Shown: piece by piece, positions 2,606 through 49,705 of the stretch
How positions within the stretch are numbered: position 1 is the first letter of the stretch
How the letters are laid out: every line of letters starts with the position of its first letter
Source: Hydra vulgaris
Lineage: Eukaryota > Cnidaria > Hydrozoa > Anthoathecata > Hydridae
Assembly (NCBI RefSeq): GCF_038396675.1
Contig: NC_088921.1
Span: 45,347,501-45,411,500 of the forward strand
Length of the DNA stretch: 64,000 nucleotides
Direction: 5' to 3'
The notes under the pieces: model-generated
What the model was told of the DNA's origin: nothing
The model's input: the letters and a program-made list of their open reading frames with translations, nothing else
Databases searched by the model: none
Position numbers and translations under genes: made by a program

Positions 2606-2909
2606 CCAGAACAGATTCACACAGGTTCATTTTACTATATACGAGTCATATAAATCGACATGTAATTCAGTCAGTATATGGAAGTCAATCAGTCAGTATT
2701 ATTAAGACAGTTTATCAAAGTGAGTTTTATCAAAGTGTTTTATCGAAGAACATCAATACAAGAAGTGAAATACAACAAGTGTTTCATTACATCAATACAG
2801 TCTATATCCAACCAAGATGTTGTGTTCCACAGAGCATTATTGTATCATCACAAGGTAAATGTAACACGGTAAGCCTTGAAAAGCGTGATTATTTATTTTT
2901 ATTATTTTT

Positions 2910-3930
2910 ATGACTTCAAGTGCAAAAACGGCTCCCGACAGTCTTGGATTGGAACTAAGAAAGAAAATTATTGGCGATTACGTAAGTGGAATGTCACAAA
3001 AAAGTATTTGTGATAAATATCGCGTGAAAAAATGGACCGTATCAAGACTATGTTCCAAATATCGTTCTACAGGGAAGTTGACAGCAGATAACAAAGGTGG
3101 AAGACCGAGCTCCACCACTTCTAGAGAGAATTCTATGATCGTCAGATCCGTCAAGAAGGATCCCTGGATATCATCAGTCGAGATACAAAAGCAATTAGAG
3201 CTGCCTGTATCGGACAGAACAATCAGACGACGTGCTGTTGAAGTCGGATTGTTTTCTCGACGCCCTGCAAAGAAACTGCTGATTTCATTAAAAAACCAGA
3301 AGAAAAGACTCCTGTTTGCTACATCTCATATTGACTGGAATGTGCAGAAATGGCAAACTGTCCTGTTCAGTGATGAATCGAAGTTCAACATCATTGGGAG
3401 CGATGGCATTTGCTGTGTACGTCGACCGGCCCGAAAACGCCTCGATTTACGTTACTGCCATACGACCGTAAAGCATGGTGGAGGCAATGTAATGGTCTGA
3501 GGGTGTTTTTCTGCTAACGGTCTAGGTCCAATAAATCGAAACGATGGAATAATGGACCGTTTCATGTATAAAAATATCCTGAAAGATGTTACCTCATGCT
3601 GAATGGAATAAGCCAATAAAATGGGTTATTCAGCAAGACAACGATCCGAAACACACTGCAAAATTAGTCAAGCAGTGGTTTCAAGACAACCACCTATCGG
3701 TGATGGATTGGCCGCCTCAATCTCCGGATCTCAACCCTATCGAGAACCTGTGGGAGATCGTCAACCGCAGAATTAATCGTGAAGGTGTTCGTAATAAGGA
3801 TCAATTGTTTGAACAAATTCAAAAGGCCTGGGCAGCGGTTCCACAAAGTTTCATCGATCACCTGATCAAATCTATTCCTCGAAGATGCAAGGCTGTGATC
3901 GACAACAAAGGATTCGCCAAAAAATATTGA
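2910..3930 (+). pseudogene. Tc1-like transposase B (DD34E), one nonsense codon and one frameshift
   Basis: ATG at 2910 opens a transposase with an N-terminal HTH (KSICDKYRVKKWTVSRLC), a GRPSS linker and a second DNA-binding half. Catalytic Asp 1 is in FSDESKFNIIGSDG. The frame ends at TGA 3498-3500, exactly where family members have Trp in VMVWGCF. Coding continues, then shifts frame near 3586 and ends at 3930. Asp 2 is in QQDNDPKHTA and Glu in NPIENLW, 34 residues apart. Overall length is about that of an intact Tc1 transposase (340 residues). Only two lesions are visible, making it one of the younger Tc1 copies here. The cut-and-paste role at TA targets is known for the family. Confidence 0.88.
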
Positions 3931-5109: not shown

Positions 5110-6024
5110 TATTGACAATCGTAAGTGAGTAGAACTTTTTTGCTTTGCTAAGATTGTCATTATATAACCAAAAAAACTCATAATACAAAACACCACTCGG
5201 ACCATCATTAAAATTCAATATTGCAGAATTTACTCCAATCTCCAGTGTTGATCGGTTCACGAAAACCATTTTGGAACAGCGTTTCAAGATAATTGAATTG
5301 AGCGCCTCGTTCGCATTCTGTGATTGGCCGTGAAGACATTTTGAAAGCAATTCATCTGCTGATAAATCCTGAAAAATTGGTTTTAATAAATTAAATAGTA
5401 GTGATATTTGCACCAAATATTTTCATCTTGCGGGCGTGTTGGTATTCTTGATCATCAAATTTAGTGCAGTGAAAAAGTACTGCCCAAACTGCTTTCTTCC
5501 TAGCTTACAAACTATGAATATTGTTTCTAATTGCTAAACCATAATAGTTTTATTGGTTCATAAGCATAAGAGTTTATTACTGGTTCTGTAAGTTTACCCT
5601 CACCCTGCAGACAAGTCTGTGTCTCTTTATTTATTTTAACCAGATTTCTAAGGCGAGTGTCAAGACGTCTTTGCACATGACCAATGCATTCTAACTTTAC
5701 ACGAGTGATACTATACTCCTTATATGGGTCACTTTGCATGATATCATTGAATAATGAAGTGTCTCTACCTCCAAGATACTCTTTATATATAAAATTATAC
5801 TTAGATACATAGCGTTTAAATATCGAGATAGCACCAGCTAGCTCCAATGAACCAAAAGACCCTTTATGGTTGATATTGCATATATGGCTAACATTGAAAA
5901 ACCAAATTATGATAATATAGTAGTAGTGGGGGCCTTCCAGATCATTTGTTATGCATTCTTGGGCTGCCTTATTCATAAGCCTAATCCAATTTCGCGGAAA
6001 CCCAACAACTGAACTTATATTCAC
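5110..6024 (-). pseudogene. Mutator-like (MULE) transposase fragment
   Basis: Two overlapping minus-strand stretches match one protein family. Upstream (5527-6024): a cysteine pair, NHKGSFGSLELAGA, YLGGRD, KLECIGHVQRRLDTRLRNL and GKLTEPVI, which I recognise from invertebrate Mutator-like transposase domains. Downstream (5110-5416): CLHGQSQNANEALNSIILKR and EIGVNSAILNFNDG, the usual C-terminal block of the same proteins. The two lie in different frames separated by a gap, and no N-terminus is visible. The family cuts and inserts DNA through an RNase H-like fold. Family assignment is by memory of motifs and fairly confident; the gene is dead. Confidence 0.72.
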
Positions 6025-7735: not shown

Positions 7736-7769
7736 TAACCTCCTTTTAACAGCTGTTAAAAGGAGGTTA
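7736..7769. repeat. 34-bp perfect palindrome with no spacer
   Basis: The half-site TAACCTCCTTTTAACAG (7736-7752) is followed directly by its exact reverse complement (7753-7769). It lies in AT-rich non-coding DNA, about 190 bp below the end of the LINE fragment. Nothing suggests a terminator or promoter. Confidence 0.9.
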
Positions 7770-7959
7770 ATATTGTATTATTTACAAGCTACCTGCAAAT
7801 TGAAAGCTACCTTAAAAGTAGGGTACCGGATTGGAAATTTTGAATTCTGAACAAGAAATTATATATAGAGATCGTCCATGAAGCACGTACTCTCCGATGA
7901 AAAGATAGGGTCTGCAAATGGCGTAAATGAGATGGGAACAGGGGGTCAATTATAAATGT

Positions 7960-8990
7960 AAGAAGATTGGTGTAATTTTGTTTGTAAGATCAAACCCAGC
8001 AGTTGTAAAATATTTATTAAACTCCTCAGATATTTGTTTAGGGCATGATTTATTAGTATTTTTGATATTGATTTTTTTTGGTAGCAAAGAAGTTTTATTT
8101 TTATTTTTTTTCTATAAAATCTTTGATTACTGACCATGTTTTTTTAGCACCTAACTTACATTTAGTAATTTGTTTGCTGTAATATATTTTTTCAGTTTTT
8201 TTAAGAAGATTGACAAAGTTTTTGTATAATTTTTTTCATTAACTGTGTTTTTATTTTTTAAGAAATTTATTGTATAATTTTTGTTCTTAGAGCATTTTAA
8301 TAGTGTTTTATCCATTCATGGATAGGCTTTTCTTTTCTTTTTCTTTTATTACTACATTTGGACACGCTTCATTAAAAACCGTCTGAAATTTGTTTAAAAA
8401 TATATATATTTTTTTTGTTCTTTTCTTAAACACTTTAATGAATCGTTGTACAATAATATCGTTAACATTTAAATAATAAAATCATATAATAAGAATTAAG
8501 TAAAAGATAATATAGTTATACAGGTATTTAATTTAATAAAAAGAACGTGGAGACTCGCAGAAGACCGTCAGGTCTTGTCATCGAGAACCGCTCGTAATTT
8601 ACTATCTCAATAAATCATAATCAAATATAGTTGTATATCTCTATAAAAACTTGACAGCATAAATACATCAAGTTATACATGAAATTATTAAACATTTAAA
8701 AAATATAAAAATATATAATAAATTACACGCTTCATTTGAATTTTGACTTTTATAAACTTCACTCCAATTTTCTCTATTTATGAGATAGATTTTTGTATTA
8801 TTAGTTAAAAGATTACTTTTTTTTAAGCTTAAAATTTTAGGTTGATCCTCCGAAATAGCTGTAATATTTTTTATGTTAATATATATCGGCAAATGATCAC
8901 TAATATCAATCTTAAATATACCTGTCTCAAATGACGTTTCTAAGTAATTGTTAATAAAAATATTATCAATGGCAGTTGCAGAAGTTCTAT
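7960..8990 (-). pseudogene. LINE (CR1/Jockey-like) endonuclease-to-RT linker fragment
   Basis: Read from 8990 downward, this gives the C-terminal end of an apurinic-type endonuclease (TAIDNIFINNYLE.., then ISDHLPIYINI, with the SDH catalytic motif). NWSEVYK follows. After an interruption comes the linker (FQTVFNEACPN, KKSLSMNG, LYNKFLKNKNT), and finally ISEEFNKYFTTAGFDLTNKI near 7990, the segment that precedes the reverse transcriptase. Several stops and frame changes break it. The RT itself is absent. The 8400-8660 interval interrupts the homology and contains AGACCGTCAGGTCT (about 8551), a hairpin-like motif of LINE 3' ends, possibly from another LINE copy on the plus strand. Confidence 0.75.
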
Positions 8991-27877: not shown

Positions 27878-30800
27878 GGGCCATTTCGGATAAAGCGAGC
27901 CATCGGATAAAGCGAGCCGGTCGCCTAAATATTGCAATTTTACGAAATCAAATTATGCTTTCGATTTATAACAATTTATTTAATATTAGTTATTCATTTT
28001 AAAGTCTAATGAATATTTTAAAAACAGTTGCTAAGCAATTATTTTCGCGGTGGTATAATTATAATCATTCAAGTAGTAACAAAACGTTTTTTCGCTTTAA
28101 GACCTTATATTTTGTTTAGCTTCAATTAAGAAAAGTGAGTATTTCATATTTGACACTATTTATAGTAAATATGATTGTAATATTAGTAATATGAGAAACT
28201 ATTTCAAAAAATACAGTGTTGATATGTATTTGAGCGATGATAAATTTTTTTAATCGAATTTTCAACCTGGCTCGGTTTTGCATAACTGTTAGATAAACCG
28301 AGCCAAGGGCATTCAGGTAAACCGAGCCATTGGCTCACTTTTCCAAAAATTGCAATAATAAATAAATGTAAAAAATATTATAAATTTTTTTGCTTTTTGA
28401 CCCACATGAATTGTTAATTTATTGGAATTTTTTATGATATTTTTACAGAATGGTACGTTATCAACCGATCACGGCCCGAAGAAGCCAAAAATCTCAAGGA
28501 AAACAAAAATTGTCCGAGCAGGTACCGGCAATTCGAGGACAACATCGAAGTCCAAAAAAACTGCCGAGGCCTCAAAGTCATGCAGGCACAAAACTAAATT
28601 TATGGCAAAAAGGAAATATGGCTGGTGCTATGGAAGAATACAGAAAACAAGAAGAAAAACCTTCAACTGAACGGTTGTCAATACGGCTGATAGCGAGAGC
28701 GTGGAATGTGCCATATGAAACTTTGAGGAGAAGATTGTCAGGAAAAGTGAGCGAAGTGGAAAGTGCTTCTGGGAGACCCACAATTCTTTCACAATAAAGT
28801 GAAGAAGAATTAGCAGAGACTGTAAGAAAAATGGCACGAGCAGGGTTTCCTTTGTCGCGCAAAGATATTCGAGAAATTGCATATGCTTATTCTGATGCTA
28901 AAGGAATAAAAGGATTTTCAGAATCAAAAAAAATTGCCGGTTATTACTGGTTTCAGGGATTTTTGAACAGATTTCCTGATATAAGCACAAAAAAGGCAGA
29001 GAATCTGTCTGCAGCAAGAGCAATGGGTATGAACAAAACTCAGTTTATGAAATGGTTTGATTTGTATGAAGACTTAGTGCAAAGACTGGATATAAAAGAC
29101 AGTCCTAGGCACATTTGGAATGTGGACGAGACAGGTGTGATGAATATTCACAAGGCAGAAGAAGCTGTGGCAATTGTTGGTGAACCTGCTTATAATCTTA
29201 CTGCATTAGAAAGAGGGGAGACATCTACTGTCTTGGCAGCATTAAATGCATTTGGCGATATTATACCACCTATGATCATTCATAAAGGAAAAACTGTTGG
29301 CAAAGGCTGGAAAGATGGTGCTCCTTTTGGTGCTATTGTAAAAGCAAGTGATAGTGGCTGGATAAATAAAGACTTGTTTGTGGAATTTGGACAGTTATTT
29401 GTCAACAATTTACAACGATTAGGACTATTAAACGATCGACCTCATCTTTTAATTATGGACAATCACTATTCACATGTGTTTAACCTTGAATTTTTAAACC
29501 TAATGAAAGCAAACAATATTCATGTATTTGCATTACCAAGCCATACTACTCATTGGCTGCAACCGCTGGATCGTGTGCCTTTTGGTTCATTTAAGAGAAA
29601 GTGGAATGAGGGCATGAGATTTTTTACACGAAAGAATGCCGGCCATAAACTGGAAAAAAAGGAATTTTTTAGCTTGTTTACACCAACTTGGCAAGCATCG
29701 ATGACTGTTGAGCTGGCTCAGGCTGGCTTTCGTGCTACTGGCTTGTTTCCCTTTAATGACAAAGCTATTCCTGAAGAGGCTTTTGCACCAAGCACCATTA
29801 CAGAAAGAAAATTAGATTCAACAGCCTCGAATTCTCAGCCCAATATGTTGTCAAATATTGAAAATTCTTGTTTGCCACTGCGATCGAGTATTGAACAGCC
29901 ACCTGTACCTAATGCAGCTATGAATTTGCAGTTGATTTCTGTGACCGAATCCGTTGACATAATTAATCTGAATGAAATGCAGTTGCCAGATATTTCATAT
30001 AGTTCTAGTGCTAAACTTGTTGATACAGCTAATAAAGATAATATTAATGCATCTAGTTCTAATACTCGCCTAGATAAGCAGCATGAGCAACATGTCAATA
30101 CTGATATTGCTGGTAGTACTTGTTTACCTACCACTGATGAAAATGCAATTGTGTCAATTGAACAAGCAGACCTCAATGTGTCTTTCGAAAACTTGATGCC
30201 AGTGCCACACAGAGATCGACCACAAAGCAGTCGGCCACGTAAGAAACCACCATCTTATGAATTGACATCAGAAGAAAATGTAGCATTTATTCAAGAAAGA
30301 ACCAAACCAATAACAAAAAAAGCAGCTAAAGAGAAAGAGACCAGCAAAGAAAAGAAACAGAAGAAAACTGTTCAACAGAAGGTTATAAAGAAAAAGAAAG
30401 AATCCAAAAAAGAAAAGAAACAAAAAGAAGAGGGCATTTTCAAATATTGTGGGTTTGCATACGGTGAAGCAACTGATCCTCTCATTGACGATGAATGGAT
30501 TGAGTGTGACGCGTGCCGTGATTGGTTACATGAGAGCTGTATCGAAATAACCGTGCGTGGACAACTATGTGCTGATTGTGTTCAAACAACAACTAAGTAA
30601 ATTAACTCTAGTTAAGACTTGATACTTTGCATTTTGTACTGCATCATTTATCTGCAGCTTTAGCAGAATTATTTTTATTAGACTCGCTGACATTTTTATA
30701 TTGCTTTTGTTCTTTAAATTTTTTGCATTGTATGCATTTGAGGTTAATGTTTGCAAACTTTTAATACCAGTTTACTATATCGTAGGTAATAAAGTTAATA

Positions 30801-35200: not shown

Positions 35201-35308
35201 AAAATAATGGTATTAAAAACCTGTTGCTTATAAAGTCTATGAGAAAAATAATAATTAATTTTAAGCTGTTGTAATAATTAATAATAATTTGTAGCTGTTG
35301 CTTGTAAC

Positions 35309-35375
35309 GCAAATATTATTAACCAATCAGGTTTTAGTAATTATTACTAAAACCTGATTGGTTAATAATATTTGC
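35309..35375. repeat. 67-bp perfect palindrome
   Basis: 33-nt arms 35309-35341 and 35343-35375 match exactly around one central T. The arm contains AACCAATCAGGTTTTAGTAA. It lies in AT-rich DNA with no gene on either side. Confidence 0.96.
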
Positions 35376-35636
35376 ATTATAATTAGGCTTTGAATGATTT
35401 GTGTAAACGATAGCTATTGTGCTGTAGCTTTGTAGCCACTATAATACTTATTTACTTAAAATTAAATAAATTTAATAAATAAAAACGCATTACTTTATAT
35501 AACAACAGAAGTGTTCATAATCTGCCAGCTTTTAATATATCTTATATATTGTTTTGTGTAACGCTTTGTTATATTTTAATTTGAGCTAACGAATGCGTTT
35601 TGTAGATGTTTTGTTTATGTTAGTGTTTTGTGCACG

Positions 35637-35898: not shown

Positions 35899-35903
<5 letters not shown>
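35637..35903. repeat. Direct repeat pair, about 50 bp each
   Basis: GGACGTTATTGTTCTTAAAG with the following TGCTAATTTCACTG..CAACATTAAT occurs at about 35639-35688 and 35852-35899, about 213 bp apart. The second copy ends at a (TA)n array. These could be flanks of a decayed insertion. Confidence 0.85.

Positions 35904-35985
<82 letters not shown>
35900..35985. repeat. (TA)n array beside the Penelope-like element
   Basis: About 85 bp of TA ending at the left border of the Penelope-like element. Confidence 0.95.
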
Positions 35986-35989
<4 letters not shown>

Positions 35990-36048
35990 ACTGTTACCCG
36001 CAGTACCAGGAATTAGCTAAATGCTAATGTTTATAATATAATTTAATA

Positions 36049-36090
36049 TTGCAACTCTGAGTTTCATGTGTTATCACAATCACCAGGCAA
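36049..36090 (-). ncRNA. Hammerhead ribozyme in the left repeat, core mutated
   Basis: Mirror copy of the ribozyme at 37045. On the minus strand the core reads CTGGTGA (36086-36080) in place of CTGATGA, so the invariant A6 is G. Stem II is TTGTG..CACAT, then GAAAC, TCAGA, GTT and a clean stem I TTGC/GCAA. The fold is kept, but the A6 change should abolish or strongly reduce cleavage. Confidence 0.72.
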
Positions 36091-36124
36091 GTAGTAAAAG
36101 TTTAATTTTGCTACGATTTGTTTA

Positions 36125-36682
36125 GTGGTCGTTGCGGTTTATATTTGTATTTTAGATTGTTACGGGATCGTTACGTTAAAAAACCACAACAAAAAAATTA
36201 TCTTCCCTATAATAGAAAATAATGATCCAAAATGCAACTGTCGAAACAAAGCAGAATGCCCTCTGAATGGTAAGTGCAAATCCACAAATATTATATATAA
36301 ATGCATCGTCGCAGCAAAAAACCAACCCAGCAAAGTTTATATAGGATTAACGGAAGGTGAGTGGAAAACCAGATACAACAACCACAAATCATCATTCAAC
36401 AATATTAAATACAAAAATTCGACCGCCCTATCAAACTATGTCTGGGATTTAAAAAACAATTTTAATGAAACCCCTATGCTATCATGGTCTATTCTCAAAT
36501 CAGTACCCCCCTACTCGAATATTTCCAAAAGATGCCCACTATGTCTGTATGAGAAATTTACTATTATATCATATCCAAAACCTGAAGAACTGTTAAATAA
36601 GAGAACCAAAACTATATCGAAGTGCCGCTACGAAAATAAATTCTTATTAAAAAATTACAAAGCTTGCTACAAACCTGACTAA
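36125..36682 (+). CDS. GIY-YIG endonuclease domain of a Penelope-like element
   Basis: Open to TAA-containing context at 36680-36682. The real domain starts around 36190, after FPIIENN; residues before that are coded by the left terminal repeat and the displayed start is a GTG. A zinc-finger-like cluster CNCRNKAECPLNGKC precedes the GIY-YIG core: IYKCIVAA, KVYIGLTEGEWKTRYNNH, then LSNYVWDLK and WSILKSVPPY. A second cysteine pair CPLCLYEKF and LLNKRTK.SKCRYENKFLL follow. This nuclease nicks DNA to prime reverse transcription in Penelope elements. The reverse transcriptase that should precede it is deleted, so the protein cannot mobilise the element alone. The frame is intact. Confidence 0.88.
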   Translation: MVVAVYICILDCYGIVTLKNHNKKIIFPIIENNDPKCNCRNKAECPLNGKCKSTNIIYKCIVAAKNQPSKVYIGLTEGEWKTRYNNHKSSFNNIKYKNSTALSNYVWDLKNNFNETPMLSWSILKSVPPYSNISKRCPLCLYEKFTIISYPKPEELLNKRTKTISKCRYENKFLLKNYKACYKPD

Positions 36683-37044
36683 AAACTATAAATAAAAATA
36701 ACTATACTAATCTGCTCCATATATCTCTAGGCTAACTAATAAATTACTCACATACACAGCTTTTGTAATATATTTCATAATATTATATATATTTTTATAT
36801 CAATTTTATTTCTTATTTTCTTATTTTTATTTTATTATTTTTTAATACACAAATAATACACATTAACACATAAAAAATATTTTAAACAACATTAAACATA
36901 TAACTATTTCACAATTATTAGCCAACTAAAAACAAATTAATAATATTATTAACCTAACCACTAATCAATTTCCGTCCGTAACGATCTAAAATACAAACCG
37001 TAACGTCCACTAAACAAATCGTAGCAAAATTAAACTTTTACTAC

Positions 37045-37086
37045 TTGCCTGATGATTGTGGTAACACATGAAACTCAGAGTTGCGA
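37045..37086 (+). ncRNA. Type I hammerhead ribozyme in the right repeat
   Basis: In order: stem I TTGC (37045-37048), CTGATGA (37049-37055), stem II UGUG/CACA closed by a GTAA tetraloop (with a U-U mismatch at its base), GAAA (37070-37073), C, loop TCAGA, GTT (37080-37082) as the cleavage triplet, and GCGA (37083-37086) pairing with stem I through one G-U. Core nucleotides are intact. The very short stem III is characteristic of hammerheads in Penelope-like elements. Predicted cleavage follows 37082. Activity is inferred from sequence. Confidence 0.82.
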
Positions 37087-37195
37087 TATTAAATTATATT
37101 ATAAACATTAGCATTTAGCTTATTCCTGTTACTGCGGCTAACAGTAACATATATACTATATAGCTCTAGTTTATCTATTGAGCACTCTTTCAAGT

Positions 37196-37925
37196 AGGGG
37201 AGATCGGGGCTAGTTGGCCGCAGGGGTAAGTTGACGAACTGCGTTTATCTTTAGAGCCTTTCATCAGAAAGTGACAAAAATTACTCAGAAACTTCCTTAT
37301 TGACCATTTCATCATTCACTGTAGTATTGTCAGGATTCGCGCATGCGCATGGGAGATATTGAGATTTATGCGTTTTTTGGACAAAAACGTAACTTTTAGA
37401 ACATCGCTTTCTTTTTACTTTACAAAGAAAATATTTAGTCGTATGAAAAAAAAATTATTGTAAAAGTTCCAGTCACAATTTGTTTACTATATCCAGTCAG
37501 ACTTTTTGTTAAACCTGCCGTTTTTCAGGATCTATAGACTGTTTATTAAAAAAAAAGCTTTCGGGGTAAGTTGACAGATTTTTCACGGGGTAAGTTGGCT
37601 CATAGCATTTACTATGGAAAAAAATATTCATTTTTATAAAATTATTATTATTATTTTTTTAATTTTTAACAATATTGAAAATATTTATTCTTACAAAAAA
37701 ATTAAAAAAAAATTTTTTTTAGTTTTTTTTCCACAGATAAAAGGTGGGCTACTGTTTGGCTTTTATACGGACTAATATTTGGTACCAGCTAAAAGTAAAA
37801 CTAAATTTTGGGATAAAATTGTTGCAAAAATTAATTTAAAAAAAGTTTCTATTAATTTTGCACTTAATAGTGCATTAATAATCATTTTTATAGTTTGCGC
37901 CAACTTCCCACGTGGTGGGGTAACT
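37196..37925. mobile_element. Element end with GGGGTAAGTTG repeats
   Basis: Begins AGGGGAGATCGGGGCTAGTT and holds repeated GGGGTAAGTTGA/GGGGTAAGTTGG words at about 37225, 37563 and 37587. An inverted or altered form, GCGCCAACTTCCCACGTGGTGGGGTAA, lies near 37898. Such repeated words are typical of subterminal transposase sites. No coding sequence and no clear opposite end are visible, so the family is not assigned. Confidence 0.5.
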
Positions 37926-48175: not shown

Positions 48176-49705
48176 CTCAAAATGAGTTGATTAGTATTTG
48201 TAATGACATTATAGTTTCTAAATTGAAATGTGAAGTTAAAAAACCTAAAAATTTTTCAATATTAGCAGATGAAGCATCTGATGTTAGCAATATGGAGCAA
48301 ATGCCACTTGTATTACGCTTTGTAAATGATAATTGTGAAATTTGTGAACTATTTTTTGGTTTTATTCCTTGCGACTCAGGCTTGTCTGGAGAAGCTATAG
48401 CCAGCCAAATTTTGAATAGTATTAAAAATATGGGATTCGAAATGAAATTTTGTGTTGGTCAAGGTTATGACGGTGATGGAAACATGGCTGGGAACTGTTC
48501 CGTAGCTGCAATAAGAATAAAAACTATTTATCCCAAAGCATTGTATGTTCATTGTGGATCTCATGTCCTCAATCTTTGTGTTGTAACATACAAATAGTTA
48601 GCAATATGATGTCAAATGTTCGAGTTATATCTCAGTTCTTTAATTTTAGTCCAAAGCGTGTTGATGTGCAGAAAAAAAAATTGAAGAAATGTTTCTAAAA
48701 GCTCATCACTCTCGTCTAATAGATGTATATCGTACAAGATGGATTGCCAGAATTGATGGTTTAGATGTGTTTATAGAGGTACTTCCGGCTATAATTAAAT
48801 GCTTTGAGCTAATGATTAATAACGATGAAAAGTTTTGGAATCATGACTCAGTGCGTGATGAAAATAGTTATTTCTTTGGTACTAGATCTTTCCAGTTTCT
48901 TGTTACTTTAGTAGTGATGTCTCGCTGTTTAGAAGTAACAAGACCAATTACAAAACAATTTCAATCTCCAAACCTTGATGTTTTTGCATCACGTGAAAAA
49001 GTAAATTTGTTATATCTTGCTTTACGGCGACTAAGATAAGAAATTGAACACAGTCACGGTGCTTGGTATAGTGAGGCAGTTGTATTGGCAGCAAGTGTTG
49101 GTGTTTATGAGCACAAGCCTCGTACAATAGGAAAACAGCTAAATCGAAATAATTGTCCTAGTGAATCTATTAATGAGTATTACAAGAAAGTTATTAAAAT
49201 TCCTTTTCTTGACCATTTATCATCCCAGATTCAATTACGTTTTACTAATAGAAACATTGCTGTTTATAATGGATTCTTTGCAATGCCAACTAACGTTTTA
49301 AATGTTGCTGAATGGAGAAGCAACTTTCTTCTTTTTTTAAATGAGTATGAGGATGAACTTCCGGAACCACGCTATATCATGACCGAATTGAGCATGTGGG
49401 AAGATTATTGGCGTAGTTTTAAAAATTCTCTTCCAACTACTCTAACCAAACTCCTTCCTCTTATTGATAGAATAACTTTTCCTTATATATTCACCTTAAT
49501 TCAAGTTCTTGCAACTATTCCAGTAACAACATGCACTTGCGAAAGATCAATCTCTGTTATTCGTCGTTTAAAAACCTATCTACGTAACACAATGTCACAG
49601 AATAGATTTAATAGTCTTGCTTTAATGCACGTTCACCAAGATATCAGCATTGATGCAAATGAAGTGATTGATTGTTTTGCTAGGAAAAATCCTTGTAGAA
49701 TGTAA
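48140..49705 (+). pseudogene. hAT transposase, ZMYM1-like (N-terminal zinc finger deleted)
   Basis: Begins at the palindrome with KNATYRSKTTQNELISICND, then FSILADEASDVSNMEQMPLV (first catalytic Asp region), CVGQGYDGDGNMAGN (second Asp region) and LYVHCGSHVLNLCV. A stop at 48596 and a frame change are followed by 48689-49039 (RTRWIARIDGLDVF), a TAA at 49037-49039 in the same frame, then 49085-49705. The C-terminus TCTCERSISVIRRLKTYLRN with MSQNRFNSLALMHVH is the hAT dimerisation domain. Zinc finger TTF and the N-terminal part of the DUF4371 region are missing. Three lesions plus the deletion make it inactive. Confidence 0.88.

Follow-up and report, generated by a model that had tools for sequence, protein, structure and literature searches.

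Overall structure of the insertion

The window analysed here, a stretch of 64,000 nucleotides from Hydra vulgaris, contains a copy of a Penelope-like element (PLE) that consists of two arms with outward-facing 3′ ends. For this and all other insertions, the terms left and right reflect the analyst's orientation only. A (TA)n array (35903–35986, no strand) adjoins the left 3′ end. The left arm (35987–36167, minus strand) is an inverted family 3′ end without a tail and corresponds to positions 2830 to 2650 of the reference, which is one natural family copy of 2831 nt. A 9-nt filler at the junction (36168–36176, no strand) lies between it and the right arm (36177–37149, plus strand), a 5′-truncated PLE copy equivalent to reference positions 1852 to 2831. 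The right arm begins within the open reading frame, 3′ of the reverse transcriptase (RT) motifs, and includes a remnant of a GIY-YIG-type endonuclease without a start codon (36179–36682, plus strand; stop codon 36680–36682). Its 3′ terminal region (36975–37149, plus strand; inner edge approximate) is present again in the left arm. Within the family, the window copy is locus L009 (window coordinate = L009 coordinate + 33985).

An initial annotation of this region had described a PLE with a GIY-YIG-type endonuclease between inverted terminal repeats, placed at 35986–37149. Both features were borne out: the family has a frame encoding RT and endonuclease, and the arms are indeed inverted (35980–36146 and 36989–37155), 167 nt long, and 95% complementary, their outermost bases being TA stretches. 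The left border needed a shift to 35987, whereas the right border had to be extended to approximately 37196, since 47 nt of the family tail come after 37149. These first 47 nt of the tail (37150–37196, plus strand) are followed by unrelated sequence starting with GGGGAGATCGGGG. Since the remainder of the right-arm tail has no match in the window (with up to 3 mismatches in 27 nt), the sequence from 37197 onward is taken as a later insertion or a deletion joint. It interrupts the PLE tail, carries repeated GGGGTAAGTTGAC motifs at 37223, 37563, and 37587, and is perhaps another repeat. The PLE insertion itself is probably old. Upstream of the element, positions 35302–35382 form a nearly perfect inverted repeat of 40 nt whose loop is 1 nt long. 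Elsewhere in the window, the frames at 1007–1711, 2889–3500, 28798–30600, and 49040–49705 resemble transposases by eye, which we take to be of the Tc1, pogo/Jerky, and hAT types; the pogo/Jerky-type frame presumably has a PHD-like end.

Endonuclease frame and coding capacity of the family

The open frame on the plus strand (36098–36682) is 194 aa long from stop to stop, and its PLE-derived portion starts at 36179. It has the GIY-YIG endonuclease fold by which PLEs with a C-terminal endonuclease are recognised. The initial annotation was right that this frame is open. A start codon is missing, the initial residues derive from the inverted arm, and the sole in-frame ATG lies deep within the domain. 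Compared with the majority of the other copies, the frame has 13 differences, five silent and eight replacing, which are too few and give no signal of selection on it. The open endonuclease frame is not a sign of function.

The window copy is a member of a multi-copy PLE family with RT and endonuclease. These are found together in one frame in the family and are not so combined in the window copy, which lacks the RT because both of its arms are 5′-truncated. In the sister copy L015, the open frame spans 653 aa, includes a YRDD motif, and aligns over 99% with proteins of approximately 700 aa. Pfam did not recognise the RT of L015, and the homologue P0029 gave a weak RVT_1 match (4.4e-05) under the curated cut-off. 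For the window frame and the L015 frame, Pfam returned only weak, unrelated names under the cut-off, and a PDB sequence search returned nothing useful. A pseudo-LTR was detected in one sister copy: in L016, the ORF is preceded by a directly repeated fragment of 64 nt, the only such fragment among the loci mapped. The window copy without RT is an ordinary object, a 5′-truncated insertion of a common Penelope retrotransposon.

Hammerhead-like motif

Each arm of the window copy carries a hammerhead-like motif, at 37045–37086 on the plus strand in the right arm and at 36049–36090 on the minus strand in the left arm. As annotated initially, the former, on the same strand as the frame, has an intact core (CTGATGA...GAA), and its mirror copy reads CTGGTGA, with A6 changed to G. 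In the right arm, stem I has 4 bp, stem II has 4 bp after a U·U at 10.1/11.1, and stem III has 3 bp. The conserved core (C3–A9, G12–A14, A15.1–U16.1, and H17) together with the three stems was found in the right arm only. In the hammerhead core numbering, a U·U at 10.1/11.1 is a weakness at the base of stem II. The cleavage site is predicted after 37082.

A strict descriptor was composed of the core, at least three pairs in stem II with one mismatch allowed at the base, three pairs in stem III, and four in stem I. It has a single match on both strands of the 64 kb, namely 37045–37086, whereas 100 first-order Markov sequences with matched length and base steps gave no hit; the right-arm assignment rests on this match and on the sister copies. 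Among the loci, the descriptor also matches one other repeat in L013 and L028, and a second, divergent PLE in L020 (minus strand, 7760–8397), whose endonuclease is approximately 61% identical to P0004. The motif of this second PLE (minus strand, 7800–7831) has the stem I CCATTT...AAATGG and is followed by a (TA)n array. As regards compensatory changes between families, there is this single comparison: the core is identical to that of the window family and similarly located, and the sequences paired in the stems differ. In the family, the core is intact in 41 of the 48 motif copies across 37 loci. The 48 copies contain 0.62 changes per site in the core vs. 0.44 at other sites, and thus no protection of the core by selection is visible after insertion.

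The covariance-model comparison was less favourable to the motif. Rfam 15 gave no window match at gathering thresholds, and no hammerhead was found at E ≤ 10 for the element, including 37045–37086, or for the 66 nt around the motif. The hammerhead-like site of the second PLE had no Rfam hammerhead match either, so the test may lack sensitivity and need not be decisive. The hammerhead is not the minimum-energy fold of the motif: for the 42-nt piece, the hammerhead fold has −2.0 kcal/mol vs. −7.4 kcal/mol for a competing fold, and for the common family sequence the values are −0.9 and −6.4 kcal/mol. This weak isolated fold does not exclude activity, since the hammerhead of a lizard PLE (PAc, Poseidon of Anolis carolinensis) cleaved only with the protein present (PMC11167929); the Hydra motif, by comparison, is a sequence candidate. 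Minimal type I PLE hammerheads (PMC6155905, PMC7229834) resemble the Hydra motif in their minimal form and in having the core inside the terminal repeat. They are described as usually lacking helix III, whereas the Hydra motif has a 3-bp stem III, and the latter also differs from those described there in its U·U at 10.1/11.1 and the missing Rfam match. The hammerhead-like motif is part of the family's ordinary terminal region, and its ribozyme activity is putative.

Double-ended insertions in the family

The survey comprised 37 loci, taken from the best 40 of 1084 candidates in a genome search. Two outward-facing 3′ ends were observed in 16 of the 37 sampled insertions, a share that may overstate the frequency of double-ended copies, as the query itself contained both arms. 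The double-ended loci are L009 (window), L011, L012, L015, L017, L019, L023, L025, L028, L029, L030, L035, L036, L038, L044, and L045. The remaining 21 loci are not double-ended, and 15 of them are simple 5′-truncated copies; others include L027, which is interrupted by an insertion and has its 5′ end beyond the stretch examined, L032 and L040, whose 5′ sides are unreadable (N), and L043, whose 3′ end is lost. For L031–L045, approximately 3.3 kb was examined per locus, a range in which a distant arm could be missed. (TA)-rich arrays adjoin nearly all sampled 3′ ends, with exceptions that include the right ends of the window copy and L029 as well as L043, and the (TA)n target conceals any target-site duplication. 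A palindromic assembly artefact is an unlikely source of these structures, because the two arms are of unequal length and frequently not alike in their tails, and because the sequences flanking them on the outside, where readable, are not the same on both sides.

The nearly fixed and inverted outer ends would suit a DNA transposon with terminal inverted repeats. However, the left arm varies within the family from approximately 34 nt (L017, read by eye and then matched) and 43 nt (L044, tail only) to approximately 2.2 kb (L023), simple one-ended copies are present at 15 of the 37 loci, and the family frame codes for RT and endonuclease; the probability of such a transposon is negligible.

The initial annotation regarded the locus as a non-autonomous, mobilisable mini-PLE, that is, an endonuclease between inverted, ribozyme-bearing repeats that is moved as a unit. 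In favour of this, L028 and L030 are also double-ended with a direct arm starting near the endonuclease. Yet the borders of the window copy recur end to end in no other scored candidate among the best 40 of 1084, the best non-self match beginning at query base 192 (1608 bits vs. 2100 bits for the self match), and the junctions of the three copies lie at different reference pairs (window, 2650/1852; L028, 2296/1830; L030, 2753/1901). Together with the missing start codon, these differences make a mini-PLE family very improbable. The anatomy had been rightly spotted, but its interpretation as a separate mobile mini-element is wrong.

Tails and reverse transcription start sites

Outward of the last base of the terminal repeat (AACA), the family 3′ ends occur in two variants. 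In the first, AACA is followed by TATATATTATATA and then (TA)n; in the second, by a tail of approximately 105 nt that finishes in ACTTACGTA and leads into (TA)n. Minor variations occur, and a few ends are lost. Both ends are readable in 15 of the double-ended insertions, and in 12 of these the tail is present on exactly one arm. Eight have an untailed left and a tailed right arm (L009, with its tail cut, L011, L015, L017, L019, L023, L035, and L036), and four show the opposite arrangement (L025, L030, L044, and L045). The three concordant insertions have a tail on both arms (L012) or on neither (L028 and L038), and in L029 the right end is lost, leaving the tail state unreadable. Leaving aside the window copy with its cut tail, 11 of 14 are discordant. 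At the 21 loci that are not double-ended, 7 of the 20 readable ends have the tail. If each arm chose independently, with p = 14/30, a discordance of 12/15 would have P = 0.017, a statistic framed after the data had been seen. A tail could also be lost secondarily through slippage between TA stretches.

Junctions and divergence of the arms

For 15 of the 16 double-ended insertions, a program gave the junction coordinates, which correspond to 15 different reference pairs. The arms overlap by 1–17 nt in nine of the 15, the overlap being merely 1–3 nt in seven of these nine, and are separated by a filler of 2–68 nt in the other six. These overlaps and fillers resemble end joining. An inverted repeat of more than 6–10 bp within 40 nt of the junction is absent in 15 of the 16 insertions. 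The exception, L012, has a long hairpin junction at 5277 with a 62-bp arm and an 8-nt loop, and both of its ends are tailed.

The arms could be compared in 13 of the 16 pairs, L017, L025, and L044 being left out since their left arms are too short. Changes shared by both arms and present in at most one other arm total 54 across the 13 pairs. Nine pairs contain 2–14 such near locus-unique changes each, and the other four contain none (L009, i.e., the window, L029, L030, and L045). Differences between the arms total 77, of which 68 look private and nine are of a type that also segregates in other loci; several of the 13 differences in L036 cluster at the junction and may be due to misalignment. 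The window pair has no shared and nine private changes over 174 sites.

These data bear on whether a double-ended copy arose in one event. A single TA array might have been entered twice, by separate insertions in opposite orientation: such arrays are the family's usual target, more than one hit on them is possible, and the window arms have no shared derived change. However, the near locus-unique changes common to both arms make the insertion in those nine pairs look like one event from one source. Moreover, in 13 of the 15 resolved junctions the arms either overlap or are at most 9 nt apart, and in none of the 15 does a TA array lie between them. Two insertions are therefore quite unlikely; because the window pair has no shared change, its own single-event origin rests on the sister copies. 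An origin of concordant pairs from two RNAs, and of discordant pairs from a single one, was also considered and set aside: segregating-type differences amount to 5/33 in three concordant pairs vs. 2/40 in nine discordant pairs (L029 excluded, its tail state being unreadable; L017, L025, and L044 left out for their short left arms), which is suggestive only.

To date, inverted arms of this kind have been explained in rotifers by self-priming. In PMC3846280, the Adineta vaga elements Pen2, Pen2a, Pen5, and Pen6 have inverted pseudo-LTRs (pLTRs) in full-length and 5′-truncated copies, head-to-head being the commonest inverted arrangement. As in the Hydra family, a short tail is optional on one inverted pLTR. 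A curation guide mentions inverted pLTRs and 3′ extensions (PMC8969392). The architecture is therefore already known. Differences are found in the length of the tail, 31 bp in A. vaga and approximately 105 nt in Hydra, in the (TA)n target of the Hydra family, unlike that of A. vaga Penelope, and in the junctions, where palindromes are reported as consistent in A. vaga (PMC3846280) but are present in only 1/16 Hydra insertions. That account attributes the inverted pLTRs and the tail to self-priming on antisense templates and does not exclude a sense template.

In the Hydra family too, inverted arms could arise by snap-back, in which an antisense template or cDNA primes its own copying, the mechanism put forward for rotifer Penelope (PMC3846280). 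L012, with its long hairpin junction and a tail on both arms, agrees with it, and the source-specific changes common to both arms, taken alone, fit it equally well. However, self-priming predicts the same start site on both arms, and 12 of 15 pairs differ; it also predicts a hairpin at the junction, which 15 of 16 lack, and the overlaps of 1–3 nt in seven of nine cases speak against it as well. As the explanation of the family it is improbable, although it may also occur, rarely, as in L012. The discordant tails and mostly non-palindromic junctions are therefore fitted better by priming from two strands than by the published self-priming. A limited literature search found no report in which discordant tails serve as a test of self-priming, which is not to say that none has been published.

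Proposed priming from both target strands

The preferred reading, to which a probability of roughly 0.7 is given, is that the window contains one 5′-truncated PLE insertion made by priming from both strands of the (TA)n target. The element protein would cut both strands of this target. Since the sequence of a TA array equals its reverse complement and reads alike on both strands, both cut ends would offer the same primer, and both 3′ ends could pair with UA-rich start sites of the element RNA. Of the two cDNAs, one would begin at site 1, after AACA-TATATATTATATA, and the other at site 2, at the ACTTACGTA end approximately 105 nt further 3′. Both cDNAs would stop early, and their 5′ ends would be united by end joining. 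In the window, a left cDNA of 181 nt and a right one of approximately 1 kb would leave the endonuclease alone between two terminal repeats.

It is further possible, if rather doubtful, that the two primers, one per cut strand, copy one RNA or a paired RNA dimer with two start sites used. The two cDNAs would have to use different start sites, as both could not begin at one position. If true, this would explain the tail on one arm only and the near-identical arms in younger copies, as well as the optional PLE tail found on one of two inverted ends.

Through many double-ended insertions in a self-complementary target, the family is a natural record of the start and end of each cDNA. It is relevant to the origin of the inverted pseudo-LTRs and the optional tail of Penelope elements, and both discordant tails and junction type are checkable in any genome with such elements.

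Comparison with the lizard element

Biochemical precedents for priming from both strands come from the purified lizard PLE protein. In PMC11167929, both strands are cut and extended, two adjacent start sites define the tail, and the start sites were seen not to differ between the strands. PAc resembles the Hydra family in its C-terminal GIY-YIG nuclease and AT-rich target, in two RT start sites that define the tail, and in a hammerhead upstream of them (PMC11167929). It concerns work in vitro, and its accessible sections do not describe double-ended genomic insertions, in contrast to the genomic copies in Hydra (PMC11167929).

Other inverted and short copies

In L024 (5829–5903) and L034 (974–1019, reverse-complemented), a short inverted piece lies internally at the 5′ end; both loci lack a second 3′ end and are not double-ended. 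Such pieces at the 5′ end resemble twin priming in LINEs. In L028, two short TTAGTAGTAGAAAATCACTTAACA copies lie within the TA array just after 4978. They nearly match the reverse-complemented end of the second PLE in L020 and are perhaps extremely short insertions of that family.
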